NCBI GenBank assembly: GCA_030077755.1
Contig: JAQJZZ010000010.1
Location: 3,100,001-3,164,000 of the forward strand
Reading direction: 5' to 3'
DNA: 64,000 nucleotides
DNA from: Filosporella fistucella
Lineage: Eukaryota; Ascomycota; Leotiomycetes; Helotiales
Shown here: positions 20,383-36,719 of the stretch, in pieces
Numbering within the stretch: the stretch's first letter is position 1
Layout: every line of letters begins with the position of its first letter
The notes under the pieces: generated by a model
The model's input: only the letters and a program-made list of their open reading frames with translations
What the model was told of the DNA's origin: nothing
Databases searched by the model: none
Translations under genes and position numbers: made by a program

Positions 20383-22654
20383 ATGGAAGAAGCTGCAGTA
20401 GACCTTCATCCTCTCCACAATGGTCCCTCAAACCCGCCTGAAGATCGATCAGAAGCGATCGCCCCAGTACGTAATCACGGCACTAGTTCTGTTCAATTAC
20501 CGCCTCAGATCGTCGATACGAGCCAAGAATCTCTAGTGAGCTCTATCTCAGGTACCAGAACTCAACCTCTCACCAATGATGCTTCAACAACCTCATTAGT
20601 ACATGAACCTCGCAATGACAGTGATAGTACTGTAACAGTACCTTCAAATTCCCCGGTTGCAGCACAATCTGAAGACGCAGGCCGGACAGGCCTAGGAACC
20701 TCAATCCCAGGTCCAATCCCAAATCCCAACCGACCTCCGAGTTTGCAGCCCTTTGAACAAGATACGTCGCTGCAACAGTCTAATAGGCGTGCTTTATGGA
20801 GGAAATCTCGATTTATCCCTTCAGCTTTACGGAAATGTCATCCTCACCCAAAACAATGGAGGTCTCGGACAATCAAATGGCCATGGTTGTCCCTCATTCT
20901 CTTTCTGACACTCTCAATCGTGATTGCGATTTGTACACTCGACTCTAGGTTAGTTTGTACCAAGTACAGAACTTCTAAGTAAAATTGCAGATTGAGTCTC
21001 GTGCTGACCAAGATGCTGGACTTTCAGGTCGAGAGAAAGCTCCGGATTCGCTTCACTCGGCAACCCACCTTCATTTCTCACCAATCACCCCGCACTTGCA
21101 AAAGCTCTGTGGTCCCAAGGGATACTCTATACCACCTTACCAGCATTCATGATGACGCTTTACACCATGATGATTTCATCTTCCGTCACAAGTTTTGTCG
21201 AGCTCCAGCCATTTCTAGATCTCAACAAGGGAGGTCCAGCGGAAACGACAATCTTGCTGGACTATCGGGCATATCCCATTCTATACAGCTTCTATTTTGC
21301 ATTTCGAAATAAACACAATGTACTTGGAGTCTACATGCTGTTATCAGTCTTGTTGACGGTTGCAGTGGTACCTCTCACGGCTTTTCTGTTCACTGATGCA
21401 TCTTTCAATTTCGACTCAGCAGTATCGGTTACCATCAGTACATCTTTCGATGACATGAGTGTGTTAGACATCCCTGATTTGAGGCTCATGATGGATGTTG
21501 CATCCGCGTTTCGGATTTATGATGGACATCCTCCTCCTTGGACGGACGGGGAATATGCTTTCCCAAAGATCCTCACCCCACCAGGTATCGACGCTGGACC
21601 TTCATCTGGAAACTTAACAGTACAAGTTACAGCTTACTCAGCATATGTCAATTGTCGTATCATCCCGGAAACTGATTACCATGTAACTCGTATTGTTGAT
21701 GCTGGAGGCCAGATTCCAGGTTTGACTTTGCAAATATCCTCGAATGATCGTGGGTGCGATATTACCAACAACCTCAATATCAGGAATAAAACACTGCCAG
21801 GTGTCGTGCCAAACACAACATATTTGACCACGTGGTCAACAGTATGCTTAGATGGCAGTTATAGCCGATTAAGTATTCTCAGTGCCCTATACAACCAAGG
21901 TTCCTACTCATTGACGAATCTATCCTTAATATCTTGCATTCCCTCGTACTGGCAAAGCCCAGGAAACTTATCGATGACCAATCCCGGCTCCCAACTATCC
22001 ACCTACTCATTTCAAAATAATGATGATGACGCAAAATCAGTGCGGCCACAGCTTGTATCGACTTTCCTGGAGCTAAATCTTCACAGCATAGGGGGGTTCA
22101 ATCCAACCTCTGACCTTGAAGCAAATGACTTTGGCAGACTTGTGTACACCCTTTCGAAGAGATACAACCCAGTGTCACCACTCTTACCCGAAGAACTTAC
22201 AATTGCAACACAGTTCCTGTTCTCGTCCATATACAGCGTGTTGGTCAGCACCACTGTGCTCCGGCCGATCTTGAAATCGGTCAACTCTACCGGAATTCTG
22301 TCAACCCAACATCAGAGATTGGTTGTCGTTAGCCCCGTGGCTTATATAATCGTCTTTATTCTTTGTGGGATCTGCCTTTCTATCGTAACAATGTTCTGGT
22401 ACGGAATGCAGCCAAGTATCCTTCGCGAGGAACCGATCGGGCTTCTTTCCCATGCTGTGATCATGTATGATAGCGAGATTATGAACGTAGTGAAGGCGGA
22501 GAAAGGAAGCAGTACTTGTAATGGGGCAATGGTCAAGACGCTGAAGACAGAGAAGCATTTGGAGGGTGTCACTTTTAGGATGACGGATCTTATCAATCCA
22601 ACGAGAGCGAGAATTGTCACAGAGAGAGAAATTCTCCCTTCAACAGATGCTTAA
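20383..22654 (+). CDS. DUF3433-family polytopic membrane protein
   Basis: Two exons (20383..20948, 21028..22654) give 730 residues. The N-terminal 165 residues are polar and disordered. The first span is WPWLSLILFLTLSIVIAICT. The intron acceptor at 21027 was chosen because it brings the frame to GNPPSFLTNHPALAKALWS and then to LPAFMMTLYTMMIS and ETTILLDYRAYPILYSFYFAF, the hallmark DUF3433 core. An upstream acceptor at 20990 leads to another frame that lacks the core. A third span (LGVYMLLSVLLTVAVVPLTAF), a large external-type domain with many NxS/T sites, and a last span (SPVAYIIVFILCGICLSIV) follow. DUF3433 proteins are fungal membrane proteins without an established function. Confidence 0.8.
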
Positions 22655-23209
22655 TGATATGGTCGGGGGATCTTCACGGGATATTGAAATTCGAAGCCCC
22701 TTCCTTGTCGGCAGAAGTTGCTAAAATTAATAAACCCTCCCGGTGATGGAATGGCCAAACCCTCCTCGGCTCTATCCCGAAAAGAACACTACCAACTTCA
22801 TCACAAAGTCCCAAAATTCTTCGACTCACAACTATCCTGGTAGCCTAGAACGAAGAAACCACCAGTTTGGTAGAGAAACCGCTCCTCTCTGTGCTTCTTC
22901 CCACTGGGGTGAAATGGGTCCTGTCAAATTATCCCAGATCGATGAAGAAGATCGCTAGCAGGCTCATTGCCTCGCCACGCTACAAGAAAGGTATTGAGGC
23001 AATTGCACATATATGTACATCAACACTCTATGTGTTTCCTAGTTGCATACACCTTAAATCTTATCATGAGACATCATGATGAATCAATGGCGCCGAGTAA
23101 TTTTCCAGTCTCATATATTGTGTATTATTGGTACAACGCGGTGCTCGCTGGAAGCTGCAGCGAGTTATTTGCGCAAAGCACATCAATAGATGTGACCATG
23201 ATGTGATTT
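22655..23209. other. Convergent intergenic stretch
   Basis: Between the 3' ends of the DUF3433 gene and RIT1. No coding signal or RNA gene recognised. Confidence 0.45.
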
Positions 23210-24774
23210 TCATGCTTTTGCAAAGAAAGCCCGAAGGTATTCGGACATCCCCGAGCCAGCTTCATCGCCAGGACATCCAGGCGGTGGCATTAAGAAGCTG
23301 TTGACGCTGTGCATCGTTGCTCTGCTGGGAATTGCATCGGGCTTGGAAGCAGTGATCCAGGTTAACCGGCTCTTGATCATGTTTTTGTCGGGCTTAGGCA
23401 GAACCTGAGATCCCAACAGAAGAAGGCCGATATCATGTGAAATAAGACAGAGGATGGCAAGGACAACACCAGCTGATATATTGCGGCCGTCTTCGCAAGC
23501 AACTATGGCGCGTTTCTTACATTCTGAGACTAGACTTGCCTCACCACCTGCCACCCCTAAGTTGGAACTCACAAATTCTATTATGAGAGGTAGAGCTCCA
23601 CGAAGATTTTTGCTGCCGAGTTTACCAGGCCCAAGTCCGAGTCGCAAGTGGGAAGGAGACAGGCGCCAAGTGCTCTCTTCTGTGACCTTGGGAAGTATTT
23701 CGACTATGCATGCGTCTGGATCCGGTTCGCTCCTAGACAGCGCCGCTAAGTTTGTGAAGAATAGCCAGCACCCCGGCCTGATCACGTATGCTTCTTCCAC
23801 TGATGTATTATGAATCCCCCGTTCGACGAATTTGGTGATGACATCTGGAAAATCAGACTCGGGAGTGGCGAGAAGCTGCTCTTTATATGCCCAGAATACC
23901 TGAGGTGTCAAGCCATATGCCCAATTCTCTGCATCATCTCCGGCGCCCTGAATATAGCCACCTTCACTCATTTCCCCGCCTAAAACGCATCTCGAAACAG
24001 TACAGCATATTATGGGATGATAATTGTCAAATATGGATGTAGTTGGCGCAATATCCGATTCTGGCGTGATCCAGAATGGACGTAAAGGCTTTGTGATTTT
24101 GCTTCGGAGCGTTTCGACTGGGATGTCCATAGAACGTAATGTAGTTGTGAAAGAGGGGATGAGGGCAGCAATTTGGGCGTGTTCAGACCGGGAAACGATT
24201 TGAGGTGGGGTATACAACTCATGATATTCAGGCTCGTTTGGAAATAAGACAACATTGATAGTGCTGCACCATATCGGGATAGTTTTGCTCAAGGCATCTG
24301 GCATTCCTGCATAGAGAGGTGAGTAATGGGAACGACATATGCAGCAGAGCGACTTACGCTTTCCCCTCCTCGTAGAGTCAATGATTATGCATCTAGGGGA
24401 AGGTTAGGAGACGGCATTCATCTCATGAAGCATATAAGCACGCACCCATCATTCTTCCCAATTGTGTCCAGCAGATGGAGGTTCAGTCGTTTTGTGCTGA
24501 ACTTCCAGGCATTGGTGTGACCATCTGTGCTTTTAAAAAATGCACTGTCTTTTTTGGTCTCAGGATCGACGTACCAGCTCCCACAGCGTTCGTTGGCAAG
24601 TAAGGGTCTGCTGTATGCAAGCGCGACAGTGCGAGCAAAGGCTGCGTCCTGCAGGATCGATTCCAGGCGGTTGCGGATTGAGAGATTGGAACGTTTGAGC
24701 TCACCAAGAGTTTTGGAAAAGTTATGGTTGTGTTGTTCCGCGAACACTAATTCGGAAACAGTAGGAAAGGACAT
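23210..24774 (-). CDS. RIT1: tRNA A64-2'-O-ribosylphosphate transferase
   Basis: Three exons (24774..24446, 24392..24358, 24306..23210) give 486 residues. Rit1 adds a phosphoribosyl group to A64 of initiator tRNA-Met, which keeps it out of elongation. The diagnostic stretch GCIIIDSTRRGKRMPDALSK is assembled across both introns, and KTIPIWCSTINVVLFP follows at once. Further family marks are RCGSWYVDPE and the STDGHTNAWKFSTKRLNLHLL block in the first exon, and GAGDDAENWAYGLTPQVFW in the third. The C-terminal part has the usual phosphatase-like fold region ending near NSFLMPPPGCPGDEAGSG. Length is normal for fungi. It is transcribed away from rvt, with 1.2 kb between start codons. Confidence 0.93.
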
Positions 24775-25949
24775 TGAGAGAAGGTTACATGAAGTCTGGA
24801 AATGCTATTGTGGGTGAGGCTGAAGGAAAGCCTGGTGTGGGGCTTGATGTTTGCTCTGTTTGCATTCAATTGATAGTTTTGATGAGGTCAGGCAATTTTC
24901 CATGAACATGTTGGAATTCTGACACTCAACTACGCTCTTATTCTATCCAGTGATATCCACTCGATGCAGAATTCACAGTAAAGGCATTGACTAGTCTTTT
25001 CTTCGGAAGAAGGGCACCGATTCATGAGTTGTAGATACTCGCAGAACGGGCTCACAGAGTTGACTGGAGCTTGAGGTGATTCTCTTTCTGATTCAACCCG
25101 TCAACAGATACAGATTGCTCCTTTCATCTTTTATACCTATGCTTAACTAGATATCGACCTATCACCAGATATGGAATTTGGTTTTGAATCTGTGCATCCA
25201 GTGCTATCCCGTCTGACAAGTATGTCACGTGGTTTATTCCCTTCCTCATTTGCTGTTGAATATTTGAATCGATGATTGAAGATGTTTCTATCAAGAGAAT
25301 GGCTACATACGTATGAAAATACCTCTTGCTCAAGCATTTTTAGCCTCCCGAATTTGGTTGCAATTGCATCTATGAGGACAAGCTCTTAGGACAAAAATGC
25401 TGCCTACCTCCCTACATATGTCGTTTTTGAATTGCCCTACTAAAGACACTTGTGCGTGCCTATTTCCCCGGCTCCCAATAAAGCTCACCGCTCAAGTTGA
25501 ACATGTCATGCGGCTACTCACCTTCTGACTCTCCTTTCAAAGGGGTGGTCTTTTTCGGCGTGTCGGAAAAGGCAAAGAGCCGCCTCCCGTATGACTCACA
25601 CGTGACATTTATCCGCTGAAATGTTGATGGCACTGAAGAGGAGAGACCACAATGAGCTCGCCGTTTGCATGAAGACCACTATGACATTGAGAGCTCTAGG
25701 TAACAAGTTGAAGCTCGACTGATAGGAGTAAACTATTTAAGTGGGCTTTGTACCCTCTCGAATTTGATTTCCTCAGCCTCAACCTCATCCATCTGCCCTC
25801 CCCAAACCCAACACACCATCTTTACCCAAGAGCCAGGACTCACAGCTCACTCTATCACACACATTCACTTACACACTCTCTTTTTACCACCAAAAATCCC
25901 TCTTTAATTCCTCTCGCCTCACTTGCTTGCCACCACGAAATCAACAATT
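24775..25949. promoter_or_regulatory. Divergent promoter region of RIT1 and rvt
   Basis: 1.17 kb between divergent start codons. The rvt side holds TGACTCA at 25592-25598 overlapping CACGTG at 25599-25604, a second TGACTCT at 25526-25532, a TATTTAA at 25734-25740, and then a pyrimidine-rich leader (about 25765-25949), typical of strongly expressed fungal genes. TGACTCA is the binding site of Gcn4/CPC-1-type regulators. No gene was recognised in the rest. Confidence 0.5.
25592..25604 (+). promoter_or_regulatory. CPC-1/Gcn4-type site fused to an E-box
   Basis: TGACTCA (25592-25598) runs directly into CACGTG (25599-25604), about 350 bp upstream of the rvt ATG. The first is the perfect amino-acid-control element; the second is a bHLH core. 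Both calls are from sequence alone. Confidence 0.45.
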
Positions 25950-28541
25950 ATGGCTTCCTCCGATGTTCTTTCTCAAACCCTTTCCTCCATCACCTCCATA
26001 AAACTCGACGAGATATCTAATCAACGCAAGGCTTTTGAAGTGTCCAAATCAGAGCTCCTCTCTATGGTCCAAAATGAAACCAACCAACACAAAAAGGTTG
26101 AGCTTTTACTCCATATCAATAGTGGTGTCATGCCTGGTTTCAACAAAATCGAAAGCGACACTTCGATCCAGTTCAAGAACATTACACGCTTCATGGAGCA
26201 GGCTCACATGGATCCATCCGTCTCCGGTGCTATCCAGAAAGATTGGCAGTCCAAGCTTGAAAAGCAGCTTGGAGTTCAGACCTTGAAGTACGAATACGCT
26301 TCTCTGTTTGGCCAATTAGTCAATGAATGGCTTAATACAAGCAAGGAAGCTACTGAGACGGCATCTGAAGGCGAGATGGGATTTGAGAGTATTGGAAGGA
26401 AGGAGATGCATGAGCAGCGGAAGAAGTGGGAGAGCATGGTTTTCGAAGCCAAAGAAACAAACACCCAGGCCATTGACGAATATCTTACCAAAATCTTCAA
26501 CTCAACGAAGGCTATCAAGACAGCTTATGAGCATATATGCACTGCGACCCAGGTGTTCGAGTCCCAGATGGCAACCCCTATCCACTTCGATCAAAGTGTT
26601 TTGCTATGGGTCATCAATGGTCTTCTTCGCAGCGACTTGGTCTCTGACGAGAAGAGAAAGGTGCTCAACGATTTTCTCAACAACAAGGTCGTACTTGATG
26701 AGATTGCTGATGTTTTAAATATGCGCATGTCAGCTTTGGACAAGTGGCAGTGGGACTCTGAGGGAACTGCAGTGGAGCAACGCCGGCAGCTGAATGGTCG
26801 ATACCGTTTTTACCATGACGAAGATCTTCTCCAAACTATGCTTTTGCGATATATTGGTGTTAAGTGGTCTGTCTTTTTCAAGGGTGTATTTGAAACCTTC
26901 CAACGTGCAGATGAGGTATGGAAGTCTTCCTCACAGAAAGTTACTCCAGAGGACCGTGAGCGTCGAGACTATTTTCTTGGTCCCGAATCATACCCGTCTG
27001 TAGAGGATGCACGTCACGAACATTTTAAGAACGATATCTTTCTGGAGCAACTCCAAGGCAAACTGGACGAACAGCGCGGGGGCTATGATGACGACAGCGA
27101 AGATGAAAATGACACACGCAAGACGGGCCAGCAAATCACTCAAACCCTTCTTCATACCTTGGCTGCCGAAATAATTATGAAGACTCATCTTGGGGAGGAT
27201 GTGAATGTTGTGCGTACCGATTTCGCCTGGTTTGGTCCGTCTTTGCCGTATTCCTCCATGTTTGCCGTTCTCAAATTCTTCAAAGTCTCCGATCGTTGGA
27301 TTGATTTCTTCCGTCGGGCACTTGAGGCTCCCATGAAGTTTGTACAAGATGGGCCTGATGCAGAAGTCAAGACTCGCAAGCGTGGTACCCCGATCTCAGG
27401 CCCCCTCAGTGATTTCCTCGCCGAGACAGTTCTGTTCTGTCTAGATTTTGGATTCAATCAGGAAAGCAATGGTACTCGTTTGTACCGCTTGCATGATGAC
27501 ATCTGGTTCTGGGGTTCTGAGGAGCAGTGCGTAAAAGGATGGGAAATTATGACCCATTTTGCGAAGTTGAGTGGACTGGACTTCAATCCCGAGAAAACTG
27601 GCAGCGTTCGCGTTACCAAGGTTGGAACTCCCAAGGACAAGCCTGCCAAAGTTCATCACTCCCTTCCAAAGGGTGAAGTTCGTTGGGGCTTCTTGACATT
27701 AGACTCTCAGACTGGCCGTTTCCTCATTGACCAAAAGCAAGTTGACAAGCATATCAATGAGCTACGTTTCCAACTCGACCGCTGCAAGTCTATCTTCGAG
27801 TGGATTCATGCTTGGAATATTTACGGTTGCCGCTTCTTTATCAATAACTTCGGTCGACCTTCCCATTCCTTTGGCATCGCTCACGTCGACATGTTGCTGG
27901 AAACTTTCGCACGCATTCAATCCAAGCTCTTTGCATCTACTGGCGGCAGTGTCACTTCAACTCTCAAGAAGATGATTTCGGACAAGTTCAAGGTGGAAAA
28001 TATCCCGGAAGGTTACCTCTACTTTCCACTTTCGATGGGTGGTCTCGATCTGAAGAGCCCTTTCATCGACTTGTATCTCATCCGCGGCAGCATGAAGCCA
28101 AATACCAATATTCCCATGGAGGAATACTTCGAGGCTGAGGACAAGGCTTACCATCACCTCAAGAGAGTCTTCGATGAGGGCAAGGTCCCCAGACGCAGTT
28201 ATGATGTGGAGGCCAACAGGAAGTACTACGGCAAGCCCTTCTTGACCATGGAGGAATACACCCAATATCGCGAGCAAACCTCCAGGAACCTACGCACCGC
28301 GTATTTAGAATTGACTGAGGAGCCGGAAGTTCAAGCTGTCACGATGACTCGTGATGTCTCTGGATTTGTCGGCGCTGGTTTAAGTTGGCGCACTTTAAGC
28401 CCGTATCAACAGTGGATCATACAGTTGTACGCTGCTGACATGATTGCCCGCTTTGGAAGCCTGAATGTGGTTGAGAAGGGACTCTTGCCTACTGGTATGG
28501 TGAGCATGTTCAGAGAGAGCCGATTCAAGTGGCAAGGATAA
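25950..28541 (+). CDS. rvt: Domesticated reverse transcriptase-related protein RVT
   Basis: A single exon of 863 residues, with ATG at 25950 as first good start after a CT-rich leader. The catalytic core reads as an RT palm: motif A TDFAWFGPSLPYS with Asp424, motif B RGTPISGPLSDFL from residue 478, and motif C LYRLHDDIWFWG with Asp516-Asp517 in an HDD rather than YADD setting. GLDFNPEKTGSV (motif D) and the grip-like KGEVRWGFLTLD follow. An acidic, Asp/Glu-rich loop (about 377-388) sits just before motif A, as in the loop described for rvt. About 370 N-terminal residues form a helical, coiled-coil-prone region with no transposon domain. There is no integrase, RNase H, endonuclease or terminal repeat. 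Known rvt genes are single-copy host genes conserved in fungi, and the reported enzymes polymerise nucleotides with protein priming; the cellular job is unsettled. Confidence 0.9.
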   Translation: MASSDVLSQTLSSITSIKLDEISNQRKAFEVSKSELLSMVQNETNQHKKVELLLHINSGVMPGFNKIESDTSIQFKNITRFMEQAHMDPSVSGAIQKDWQSKLEKQLGVQTLKYEYASLFGQLVNEWLNTSKEATETASEGEMGFESIGRKEMHEQRKKWESMVFEAKETNTQAIDEYLTKIFNSTKAIKTAYEHICTATQVFESQMATPIHFDQSVLLWVINGLLRSDLVSDEKRKVLNDFLNNKVVLDEIADVLNMRMSALDKWQWDSEGTAVEQRRQLNGRYRFYHDEDLLQTMLLRYIGVKWSVFFKGVFETFQRADEVWKSSSQKVTPEDRERRDYFLGPESYPSVEDARHEHFKNDIFLEQLQGKLDEQRGGYDDDSEDENDTRKTGQQITQTLLHTLAAEIIMKTHLGEDVNVVRTDFAWFGPSLPYSSMFAVLKFFKVSDRWIDFFRRALEAPMKFVQDGPDAEVKTRKRGTPISGPLSDFLAETVLFCLDFGFNQESNGTRLYRLHDDIWFWGSEEQCVKGWEIMTHFAKLSGLDFNPEKTGSVRVTKVGTPKDKPAKVHHSLPKGEVRWGFLTLDSQTGRFLIDQKQVDKHINELRFQLDRCKSIFEWIHAWNIYGCRFFINNFGRPSHSFGIAHVDMLLETFARIQSKLFASTGGSVTSTLKKMISDKFKVENIPEGYLYFPLSMGGLDLKSPFIDLYLIRGSMKPNTNIPMEEYFEAEDKAYHHLKRVFDEGKVPRRSYDVEANRKYYGKPFLTMEEYTQYREQTSRNLRTAYLELTEEPEVQAVTMTRDVSGFVGAGLSWRTLSPYQQWIIQLYAADMIARFGSLNVVEKGLLPTGMVSMFRESRFKWQG

Positions 28542-31300
28542 TTCTGGGGTTCGTATTTGGATATAGGTGTTTGGGAATTGCATTTGGAGGAGTTTGGTAG
28601 AAGGATGGGAATGGTAGGAATGGGATCAATCATTGTACAATAAGATATCACGAATTAATGACGGTTCTGGGTGCAATATCCCTTCCCTGTGATACTTTCG
28701 TGACTCGCGCACTTTTCATTGTACCAAAATGTCATACAAAATACCCACCAATCATCGTTCTCTATTCCCTCCTTTCTACCCACCAATTTTTTAGAAAATC
28801 GAACTAAAACCATCCGCCTTGCTTTAACTCTATGGATTGGGACTGGTGCCAAGACACCAATAGCAAAGTAAGGCGGACAACGATTCGGCCTCCAACTTTT
28901 CTTCGCGAATTTTCACTGGCTGTAAAATTCACCCTAGGCTGCAGATCCAAGTTGCATATGGAGGAGATTGAAATCTGGGAAGCATCATCCGCCTCGCTTT
29001 CGAACTCTGGCCCAAAGCAAAGCCATGCACGAAAAAGCGTTCTCTGGGTGGTATTTTACTGGCTGCAAACTTGTCCTGCATATGCAAAAGGCGGATCGCT
29101 GATCTGTCTTTCTTTCAACCTATAGCGCGAAGAAAGCAACGACAAACCGAGGCGGAAATGTCTCTGAACTACTTGCTCACTGGCTAGACATTTCGTTCAG
29201 AATATGCAGGAGATTTGGCGATGGCAGTATGATAACCAAAACGCCATTGTATGCTTCCTTTGAGCTCGACAAAGAGAGCGAATTCGGTGTCGATCGCTAA
29301 GTCCAAAGATATTTGAATAGTCGTGATAATATTCTCAAACTATATCTCCCTCTGGTACCTCGAATTATTCTCACAAGTCATCTCACAAAGAACCGTTCAC
29401 CGGTCTCAAATCCCCTACCTTCGACCCCACATTCCCAACCTCATCCATCAGCCAATCAACGCTTCCCAAAACCTCTGCTTCCCTTGCACCCTTTTTTAAA
29501 TTTCTTACACTTTTCATCTCGGACAAAACCGATCAAAGATTTTGCCACTCGAATTCCAGCCTCCAACTTTTTCTTTTCTGGCCGAGAAAGGAAGTGCTTT
29601 CCAACACAACGAGGCTGTGTAAACTTCTAGCTCCTGGGGCGCCAGCTGCAGCGAAGGGCTTAGCATGAGATGGGTCGTCCAATCATAATTCAGAAAAACG
29701 GTTGCTTGTGCTGGTAGATATTGGGAATCTTTGAACTTTTGAGGGATCTTTTAGGCGGAGCACGCGATTCGTACCAATCGAAAAATTAACGCCAAGGGAG
29801 TTTTGGCCTCCAAATTGCAGATTTTTCAAGGCTATTTGGCTTTGATCGACTTTGACTGCCCATCAGCAAATAGGATAGAAGAATGTTGGTATGCGGCTTT
29901 TTTTTTTCTCTTGAAGAAGAAAAGGTTTTCCTAGCAGCTGGTTAAACGATGGCGGACGAATCACAGCTTTCCAAATCGTGTATTCAACACAGAAGCTTTT
30001 TGAAATTTTAAACTTTCGAAATGCCATTTACGAATCATATTGCGGAAGCTTATGGAGGACCTTGGCCTCCACAGTTTCGAATGCAACGGCATGATTTGCG
30101 ATGAACGCTTGGGGATGAAAGTGAGGCGGACAAGCGAGTTTTCAATTGCATTTTATTTGAATCCTCGCCCGGGTGCGATAGTGCTACGAGACACAGCCAG
30201 TCTTTTTACTCATCGTTGGTGTTCAAGGTTGAATGGTTGAAGACTTACCAACGGGGAGTTATCCCTTCGTTGTGATGATGGTGGAGGGGACAATGAAAAT
30301 CCTCGAAACCTCCGATTCCCGACTTAGAACTGCGAGAACTTTATGCTCTCGCGCGATTGAGAAGTAGCATAAGTTGAGAAATTGTCTTCACGATTGCTTC
30401 TCTATTCAGTGCACCTTGACTGCTGTAGTTGGCAAGCTGAACCAAACTTGGTTAGTGCCAAGTTACCAATGGATATAAAAGATTGATTTTCCCAGACTCG
30501 CAAGACGTCAGTTTCTGAAACAAAAAAGTGTTATGAATCTTGGATGCTCGAAGAGGCTGTTACCATTTCAATGCAGAATATTTGTGTCTGATTTCCCCCC
30601 AATCTGCCTCGTTACTTATCAGCCAATTGTTGTCCTTGCACAAAAGGGAGGCTGCTGCTGCGGCTTGGAGGCATGCCGTTTTCGCGCTGTAAATGCGATG
30701 ACCACGATTTGATAGACATAATCAACAGCGGAGACAATTCAATCTTTCTACACCAATTCAGAAATGTACTCTAGTGACATGGGTGCATATATAGCTTCTG
30801 TTCCATTGGAAGTGATGACTACTAGTCACGTGAAACCATGATTAGGTATAGGTAGTTTTCCGCTCTTTGAACTTATATCACATGGAAGTAGCACCAACAA
30901 ATGGGAAGGTTGATTCACCATTGGTAATGAGGCTCGCCGCCTCTCGGTTTTATGAATTCAAATAGCCGTTCCAAAACTCTTGGGATACAAGTACCTTAGA
31001 GAACATATATCCGATGGAGTCGGAAGAGGGCCGTAGCCGATGCGGGGAACTTAGCTTCCACAACCCCCTTTTCCCTCTCGCTTGCTGACTGCACGAGACC
31101 ATGATACAGATATTGCTAGAAGCAAACAGCATTATCAGCTCTATCAAAGTTGTTTCTTTCCTTACTCTAACACCAACAGTACTGTTCAATTGAATTGGAC
31201 ACCCCCGCGACCTGGGTTTTGCTGCACACAACATTATCTCCAGCTACAATCCTCGAGTAATGATAAAATCAGGGAGACGGCTTCTTCCACTTTCGGCTAG
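28542..31300. other. 2.7-kb gene-free region with degenerate motif repeats
   Basis: No coding frame with family resemblance on either strand. Between about 28810 and 30130 the hexamer GGCGGA or its complement TCCGCC recurs at about 28813, 28872, 28988, 29090, 29151, 29755, 29954 and 30124. Longer similar blocks also recur: CATCCGCCT-GCTTT at 28811 and 28986, ACTGGCT at 28915, 29058 and 29179, TGCATATG near 28953 and 29078, and GGCCTCCAA at 28887 and 29805 with GCCTCCAAC at 29567. Spacing is irregular. It may be a decayed tandem repeat, a structured non-coding transcript or regulatory DNA. Confidence 0.4.
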
Positions 31301-33488
31301 ATGCCCGCGGTCAGCGATACAACGCGTACGCGAATTCGCAGCTCGCGAGCATGCCAGACATGCAATCATCGAAAAGTGAAATGCGATGTCACAGAGGTTG
31401 GAGTTCCTTGCAGCCGTTGTCGGGTGGATGAGTCTGCCAGCTGCAAGTTGGTCCCTTCCAAAAGAGGGACATATGTCAGAAAGCCGAGCAGGCTTCAGAA
31501 TGAATGCCTACAGGAAAAGAAAGATAGGCCAAGAGAGCACGAGCCGGATATCAACGGTATACCAGTGTCTCCATTATCTGATGAAACGTCCGCATCACCA
31601 TTACCGACTGGCGCAACGAATCGGGATCGTATGGACGCTGTCGACTTTGAGCCTGGTATCTCAACATCTACAGATACAAATGGCTTGATACTGGAGCAAG
31701 GCTTCGCACTGGGTGCCACAGCCACGGAGAAGACTCCCACCAATCTCGCACTCCTCCAGTCGAAGAGACCTCTGCAATAACTCGGCAACAACGTGACTCA
31801 CTCACGTCGATGTTTGAGAAATTCCTTGAGCAACAAGAGCAGAGCTACGAGGACATATCCACAAAATGTGGTATCATTTTCATGAGTGGAGCGTCGCCTC
31901 TTACATTTGCTCTTGAAGAGGTCCAGAACAGAGCAGCGTTACATGATGCTGTATCACAGTTTTCACAGTGTGGCGAGACTACTAGAGTTGAGCAGAATGT
32001 ACATCCGTCGCATCTGTCATCACAGGACATCGGATATCTCAAATTGAAAGGGGCTTTTGATAGTCCCACACCAGAAGTCCTACGAGCAATGGTTGCATCT
32101 TTCATCGAGCGCTTTTGTCCGTTGTATTCAATCGTCGACCTGAGCGATTTCAAAGAACTATTCAAGAGTCAGAGATTGCCTTGGATTCTACAACATTCCG
32201 TTTGCTTCATTGGTGCCACCTTCTGCGATTCGAGTGTAATGCATCGAGCGGAGTTCAAGGGAAGGCTGCACGCCCGACGGCAGTTCTATGACAAGGCAAA
32301 GATCCTATTTGACATTGGGTATGAAACCAACAAGATTGTGCTTCTCCAGACTGTGATAATGCTTTCTTTCTGGGGCCCCCAAATGAAAAGTTATTGGAAT
32401 CCGTGCTCCTGGGTAGGGTTCGGTGTTACAGTAGCAGAATCATTAGGACTGCACAGAATCGAGCCGGCCGTGGATATGGACCGAAAAAGGAAGAGTTTGC
32501 TAAAGCGACTATTCTGGGCACTCGCAGTGCGCGATGCCTATTGTGCTGCCCTACTGGGTCGCCCTTCCGACTCAATATCGCACAGTGCGATACTGGGTCA
32601 CTGGTTCTTGAGGACTTCGATCATGACGATGTCCCAGGGAATGGAACTGCTGGGGAAAGCGTCCTTCATGCCCACTACCAGATTCAGATCTCCAGACTAT
32701 CTCTAATTCTTCGAAACATTGTCGAAGCCCGATTTGACGCCTGTCGTAATGTCACTCAGACAGCATGCTTACATGAGAAGCTAGATAAATGGCAGTCCGA
32801 GCTACCTGCAGTCATGACTTGCTGGCTACAAGAACCGACTCCACATATATTTTCAACGAGCTTGAAAATCATTTTCCACCTCCACATTATTCTTAACCAC
32901 CTTGAGAAATCGGATCGATTAGCAAGTAATGGCTCATACCTATCAACAATGAATTCGTCTTCCCAGATTGCGGAATCAGCTGCTCAGGTCATCTCATCAA
33001 CTGCGTTCACCACAGTGTCGATGCTTGGAATCATGCCTCACGAGACCTTCTCTGGGTTCTTTGTCGCAGGGATAGTATTCTATCGAGGCTTCAAACAGCA
33101 GCAGGACACACTCGCAAGGTTATCCAGGTCAGCGCTCGACAATTGCCAGATGGTAATCAGTGAAGCAAGAGAGAGATGGGACCCAGCAAGTTGGGTAATG
33201 AGAATATTTGATTTCTTGCTGTCTAGCAATAACACCAAACCCACCGATACTTCCACACGCATCGATCTGAGAAGTTCGAGTGTCTCTGGAGCATATCTTG
33301 CAGGCGATTCGATACCTTTCTTCAACGACAATGGGTTTGCGAACGGTATACCGGCAAACGACATGTTGCATTCGATCGATTTCAGCTCCCCAACGTACCA
33401 GGGTATGGGCTGGATGGCTAATGAGTTCTTCCCAATGTCGAACTTCCTTCCCATGTCATTTGAAAATCCGCCTTATATGCCGGCGTGA
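31301..33488 (+). pseudogene. Zn2Cys6 transcription factor with 1-nt frameshift
   Basis: The start MPAVSDTTRTRIRSSRACQTC opens a Zn2Cys6 cluster (Cys18, 21, 28, 37, 40, 48). The middle frame (31810..32562) carries the fungal-specific transcription-factor domain: FIERFCPLYSIVDLSDF, SWVGFGVTVAESLGLHRI and KRLFWALAVRDAYCAALLGR. At 32560-32567 the text GGTCGCCCTTCC lacks one C; the next frame continues exactly with PFRLNIAQCDTGSLVLEDFD and runs to 33488. No intron can bridge this. A second frame change between the cluster and the domain (31560-31800) could be an intron or another indel; I could not settle it. The gene is broken or carries an assembly error, otherwise well preserved. Its target may be the nearby monooxygenase gene, which is only a guess. 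Confidence 0.65.

Positions 33489-34884: not shown

Positions 34885-36719
<1,835 letters not shown>

Follow-up and report, generated by a model that had tools for sequence, protein, structure and literature searches.

The closest described systems are the rvt genes, which Gladyshev and Arkhipova are said to have described in 2011 as reverse transcriptase (RT)-like host genes without an endonuclease, present in fungi and bacteria and reportedly single copy. Other rvt proteins polymerise NTPs and dNTPs and form multimers. Rvt genes occupy a long branch and have a big loop 2a (PMC5718144), and RVT of N. crassa is non-essential, is strongly induced on inhibition of protein synthesis and has terminal transferase activity (PMC3520738). 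The gene described here, rvtA, resembles rvt genes in being a host RT-like gene without an endonuclease and, apparently, in a long region between the fingers and motif A, but differs in that three paralogues are present, one of which has a changed motif A residue. A second related system is RT_UG37, a candidate anti-phage RT family in PADLOC, whose sequence profile spans rvtA residues 12-706 (E 1.4e-65), although rvtA is a fungal gene. The same profile matches rvtB (1.6e-54) and the rvtC protein P0257 (8.9e-65). Because RT_UG37 is an anti-phage profile it is prokaryotic, and the rvt family is thus common to fungi and bacteria. The antiviral RT DRT9 (9ioa, 9nlv, 9vma) is similar to rvtA in fold and palm, but the sequence match is confined to ~95 palm residues and DRT9 works with a cognate ncRNA.

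The window gene rvtA

The window, that is, the whole stretch of 64,000 nucleotides analysed, carries rvtA within an open reading frame (25923-28541, + strand) that opens at TTG. Translation from the ATG at 25950 yields 863 amino acids, and the N terminus of the relative P0023 has approximately the same residues as this start (MASADILSQTLSSIT). The features of the gene are listed below.

25950..28541, + strand: rvtA, single-exon reverse-transcriptase-related (rvt) gene, 863 aa
25956..26438, + strand: N-terminal long helices, candidate multimer-forming part (model residues ~3-163)
27039..27149, + strand: acidic loop before motif A (aa ~364-400)
27213..27230, + strand: motif A, RTDFAW from aa 422 (Asp424), by alignment
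27375..27404, + strand: motif B, RKRGTPISGP from aa 476, by alignment
27486..27506, + strand: motif C, RLHDDIW from aa 513 (Asp516-517), by alignment

The intact 863-codon frame, the acidic loop ahead of motif A and the three RT motifs of the original prediction were all located in the sequence, motifs A and C also in the predicted fold. The AlphaFold2 model of rvtA (31-row alignment; mean pLDDT 85, pTM 0.82) places Asp424 on a strand at 418-425 and the HDD of motif C on a hairpin at 512-522. In this model 127 residues separate a presumed fingers hairpin, which ends at 290, from the strand of motif A at 418, and the long N-terminal helices are a candidate for the part that would form multimers. 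The acidic loop occupies the site at which rvtC of other fungi has a segment of the histone H3 tail.

Two kinds of profile search had been proposed as checks, and their outcomes diverge: the Pfam RT model RVT_1 gives a sub-threshold match (E 0.0023, 18.1 bits; cut-off 29.6), whereas RT_UG37 matches over most of the protein, as given above. The Pfam scan detected no RNase H or integrase domain in rvtA, and its sole nuclease-named row, C2c1_Nuc-II, is sub-threshold (E 0.013, 15.9 bits; cut-off 27) and is taken as a chance match. Full-length relatives align across many ascomycete genera among the matches listed, and the conservation of the protein is consistent with purifying selection. The RT_UG37 profile, the fold and these relatives bear out the proposed rvt-family identity, and the window gene is almost certainly a normal, intact host member of that family.

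Three paralogues and the motif A residue of rvtC

The genome carries three rvt paralogues on three contigs, with rvtA on C9 and the other two as follows.

contig C12: rvtB, 897 aa, single ORF
G000:C15:1863489-1866576 (L007): rvtC, 1007 aa, one predicted 64-base GT-AG intron

Identity over the alignment is 0.36 for A-B, 0.42 for A-C and 0.39 for B-C. Probing the genome with the rvtA-type protein P0120 recovered these three genes alone, and dispersed near-identical copies of rvtA were not found in the genome. The expectation of a single-copy gene was therefore wrong, as the copy-number check gave three diverged paralogues, one with a changed catalytic residue. Relatives were sampled as the best 120 of at least 732 (rvtA), at least 474 (rvtB) and 1133 (rvtC) protein matches. 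A tree was built from 357 of the 363 rows, six rows shorter than 560 aa being omitted, after removal of the loop and of the column holding the motif A residue. In it B and C are each set apart by a branch with support 100, with A between them and B joining next to P0103, a long row. No bacterial relatives of rvt were returned by two bacterial genome scans, and tblastn returned none in plasmids and phages; because a bacterial outgroup is missing, the tree is unrooted and rvtA may or may not be a clade. Among the matches listed, each of the three paralogues has relatives in Phialocephala subalpina and in Lachnellula suecica. From sequence comparison we distinguish the three paralogue groups with very high confidence, and the set would have been born of old duplications.

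The motif A aspartate is kept in 120/121 rvtA rows and 121/121 rvtB rows. The corresponding rvtC residue is Glu in 96/121 rows, Val in 14/121 and Asp in 2/121, so that rvtC is an rvt protein by sequence but has mostly lost this catalytic residue. The rest of the palm is largely retained in rvtC, with the two motif C aspartates kept in 119/121 and 114/121 rows, the motif D lysine in 120/121 and motif B in most. On the rvtC tree (115/121 rows, six omitted), Glu is by far the commonest motif A state (90/115) and includes the earliest-branching rows as drawn, and one subclade of 21 rows has Val, Ser, Ile, Met, Cys or Asn at this position. Several genera of this non-Glu group are ones that we take to be Dothideomycetes. 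These substitutions suggest that rvtC is probably catalytically impaired, although the change from Asp to Glu might leave some activity. It is unlikely that rvtC is still an active polymerase that uses Glu as a metal ligand and differs from rvtA in substrate alone; the retention of motif B, motif C and the motif D lysine across most of clade C is consistent with such an enzyme, but the six residues found at motif A in the 21-row subclade are not. With the motif A aspartate gone and motif C and the fold kept, rvtC would most likely be an impaired partner or regulatory subunit, and it may join rvtA. By analogy with other rvt proteins, rvtA and rvtB, which keep all three catalytic aspartates, would most likely polymerise nucleotides as multimers, and rvtA would be a catalytically intact host polymerase and the fungal counterpart of bacterial RT_UG37.

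A few database assignments among the relatives stand out. P0049 and P0052 are rvtA-type proteins assigned to the liverwort Calypogeia fissa; the longest contig of the clusters that hold them measures 8.9 Mb, and they would represent either contamination by a fungal symbiont or transfer. The rvtB protein P0212 is assigned to a Candidatus Bathyarchaeota genome and looks like fungal contamination. Cadophora sp. DSE1049 has a second rvtA-type protein, P0109, in addition to P0002; its N terminus bears a GFA domain, and it is perhaps a gene-model fusion.

The histone H3 segment of rvtC and its lysines

A segment of the histone H3 N-terminal tail is present in the loop before motif A in 46/121 rvtC rows, from three fungal classes. 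Each loop was compared with 500 shuffles (floor p 0.002), 117/121 rvtC loops being long enough. The floor was reached by 46/121 rvtC loops, 0/121 rvtA loops and 0/121 rvtB loops, and p 0.05 by 66, 9 and 6 loops, respectively. P0257 equals H3 at 29/30 of residues 2-31. Its model has an RT fold as its core, and residues 413-465 fall below pLDDT 50, with the H3 segment at 423-452; the mimic loop is accordingly predicted to be disordered. Among the carriers scoring ≥75 are Glarea (Leotiomycetes), Pyrenula (Eurotiomycetes) and Lepidopterella (Dothideomycetes), as well as Cudoniella, Lachnellula, Coleophoma and Hyphodiscus. Three rvtC relatives (P0251, P0259 and P0317) bear the name 'histone' or 'histone H3' in public databases because the loop segment resembles the H3 tail. 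Pfam found no histone domain in these three or in P0280, the match being to the tail alone, and a fusion with an H3 gene in the gene models is rejected on that ground and because the segment always aligns at a single position and shows graded divergence. We have very little doubt, from these alignments, that the H3 mimic in rvtC is real.

The segment is far from universal. Scores are below 45, or loops too short to score, in 74/121 rvtC rows, and these loops, with their faint, degraded or missing mimic, contain more Gln and Met. They include the rvtC of this genome, which has a Gln/Met-rich loop and no recognisable mimic (score 23, p 0.36). Mimic presence requires 17 changes on the rvtC tree (115/121 rows), and many losses, or several gains, are therefore assumed. 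The rvtC ancestor would have acquired H3 residues 2 to ~38 in this disordered loop. An intron is predicted in the H3 gene of this genome precisely at the boundary of the K9 and S10 codons, and the mimic sequence spans that point; spliced H3 mRNA may have been the source of the segment, and reverse transcription a conceivable route. A comparable case is the linker of BAZ2B (PMC5663869), a histone mimic in which an internal, disordered stretch looks like the N terminus of H3, but lysine-rich stretches are described there, whereas rvtC has up to 29/30 H3 residues and tends to lose lysines. A histone mimic in an rvt protein was not found among the papers listed from the published literature searched, which left most subscription papers outside its coverage. 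Within that literature rvtA adds one more gene to an established family and rvtC with an H3 tail is undescribed; if true, it would be a striking natural histone mimic inside the host's own RT-family protein.

Lysines were counted in 37 rows scoring ≥75 (38 minus the near-copy P0254), a choice by score that favours overall H3 likeness and not the lysine difference. The H3 lysine positions 4, 9, 14, 18, 23 and 27 are kept in 113/206 cells, compared with 738/833 cells at the non-lysine positions of H3 2-31 and 128/139 cells at Arg positions. Taken singly, 34/37 rows keep lysine less than the rest and 3/37 do the opposite, and the gap persists at all five score cut-offs from 45 to 120. Fitch changes per row amount to 0.40 in lysine columns versus 0.11 in the others, and 0/200,000 random choices of six columns reach the lysine-column rate. 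Elsewhere in the same proteins, columns with a Lys consensus have a mean identity of 0.77, which lies within the range of other residues (0.68 for Thr to 0.97 for Trp). The lysines were lost in separate lineages of rvtC. Lysine-specific loss in the segment is thus highly likely at the protein level, and a mutation bias may contribute to it.

The H3-like segment could be a ligand of some H3-tail-binding chromatin factor. Since the segment sheds lysines but retains its arginines and the residues around them, such binding would be independent of lysine modification; the pattern is the opposite of that expected for a methyl-lysine tether and fits a modification-immune peptide, which would permanently dock RVT on chromatin or act as a decoy tying it there. 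Docking or decoy function of the loop is plausible, if slightly on the doubtful side. The explanation as a whole, with an intact rvtA polymerase and rvtC as an impaired partner bearing a modification-proof H3 ligand, seems to us evenly poised between right and wrong. More tentative is the proposal that a non-enzymatic RT paralogue has served as a modification-proof H3 decoy since before the three fungal classes split, hundreds of millions of years ago, and couples an RT complex to chromatin control; any link to heterochromatin would be conjectural. An H3 tail in one rvt paralogue across three fungal classes points to chromatin. The mimic offers a testable lead, namely which H3-tail binder is involved and why it would do without lysines.

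A related but somewhat unlikely reading is that enzymes that modify H3 are trapped or blocked by the loop, which would serve as their decoy. A precedent in fission yeast, where H3K9M traps the methyltransferase Clr4, is given in PMC5030085. Such H3 K-to-M mutants share with the segment an H3 tail with methionine in place of lysine, but rvtC is not a histone and its K9 is rarely M (2/44). The 93 lysine replacements are most commonly R (27), M (25) and Q (12), with the flanks unchanged, and K-to-M is commoner in the segment (25/93) than in the rest of rvtC (9/197), both as a trap would predict. Against this, M is also common among non-lysine replacements of the segment, and a preference for M special to its lysines is unsupported (25/93 versus 16/95, p 0.11). 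The commonest replacement is R, and we know of no trapping of H3-modifying enzymes by Arg at H3 lysine sites.

Distinctly less credible is a lysine-dependent tether, in which the segment would be methylated or acetylated like H3 and recruit readers such as HP1. ARKS is retained at K9 in 21/38 strong rows and RKS at K27 in 16/38, and some rvtC copies with remaining lysines could still be methylated, but lysines are the least conserved positions, contrary to what lysine-dependent reading needs. It is very unlikely that the segment is a neutral, decaying leftover of one H3 insertion: the 74/121 rvtC rows with a weak, degraded or lost segment and Gln- and Met-richer loops are what decay would leave, but decay would not spare non-lysine positions (89%) while removing lysines in the 37 strong rows, and carriers occur in three fungal classes.

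Surroundings of rvtA

Direct or inverted repeats of ≥30 bases were absent around rvtA within 22000-33000, and the flanks (24775-25949 and 28542-31300) have no second copy in the genome, each matching itself alone. The dinucleotide ratio TpA/ApT is 0.45-0.57 in the three rvt genes. It is 1.14-1.26, which is RIP-type, in 7/10 hand-picked RT stretches of the genome, and 0.58-0.62 in the remaining 3/10, which were chosen as stop-free. Stop codons interrupt 56/61 of the RVT_1 matches listed for the genome; G000:C9:6140848, C3:584501 and C19:3733 are three of the five that are stop-free, and these stretches lack the RIP signal. Pfam, repeat and flank searches thus agree with the prediction that integrase, RNase H, endonuclease and flanking repeats are lacking, and the proposed host ownership of rvtA is upheld by the RT_UG37 profile, the fold, the many ascomycete relatives, the single-copy flanks and the absence of a RIP mark. 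The RT fold of rvtA is best matched by R2 and LINE-1 proteins, but a recent retrotransposon or its remnant is rejected as extremely improbable given the lack of repeats, flank copies and RIP signal, the intact frame and the full-length relatives in many genera.

Upstream of rvtA lies a divergent neighbour.

23210..24774, - strand: RIT1 (initiator tRNA phosphoribosyl transferase), two ORF pieces

RIT1 adjoins rvtA here and in one other gene model, but the arrangement differs: in the Mollisiaceae model P0023, RIT1 domains lie downstream of rvtA in the same reading, as one protein. Downstream of rvtA in the window, 31301-32706 and 35127-36719 contain domains of the Zn2Cys6 and fungal transcription factor types together with an FMO-like ORF, and are ordinary fungal genes. 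On the contig of this genome's rvtC, a divergent ORF ~1.6 kb upstream of the gene encodes microbial PARG catalytic and macro domains.
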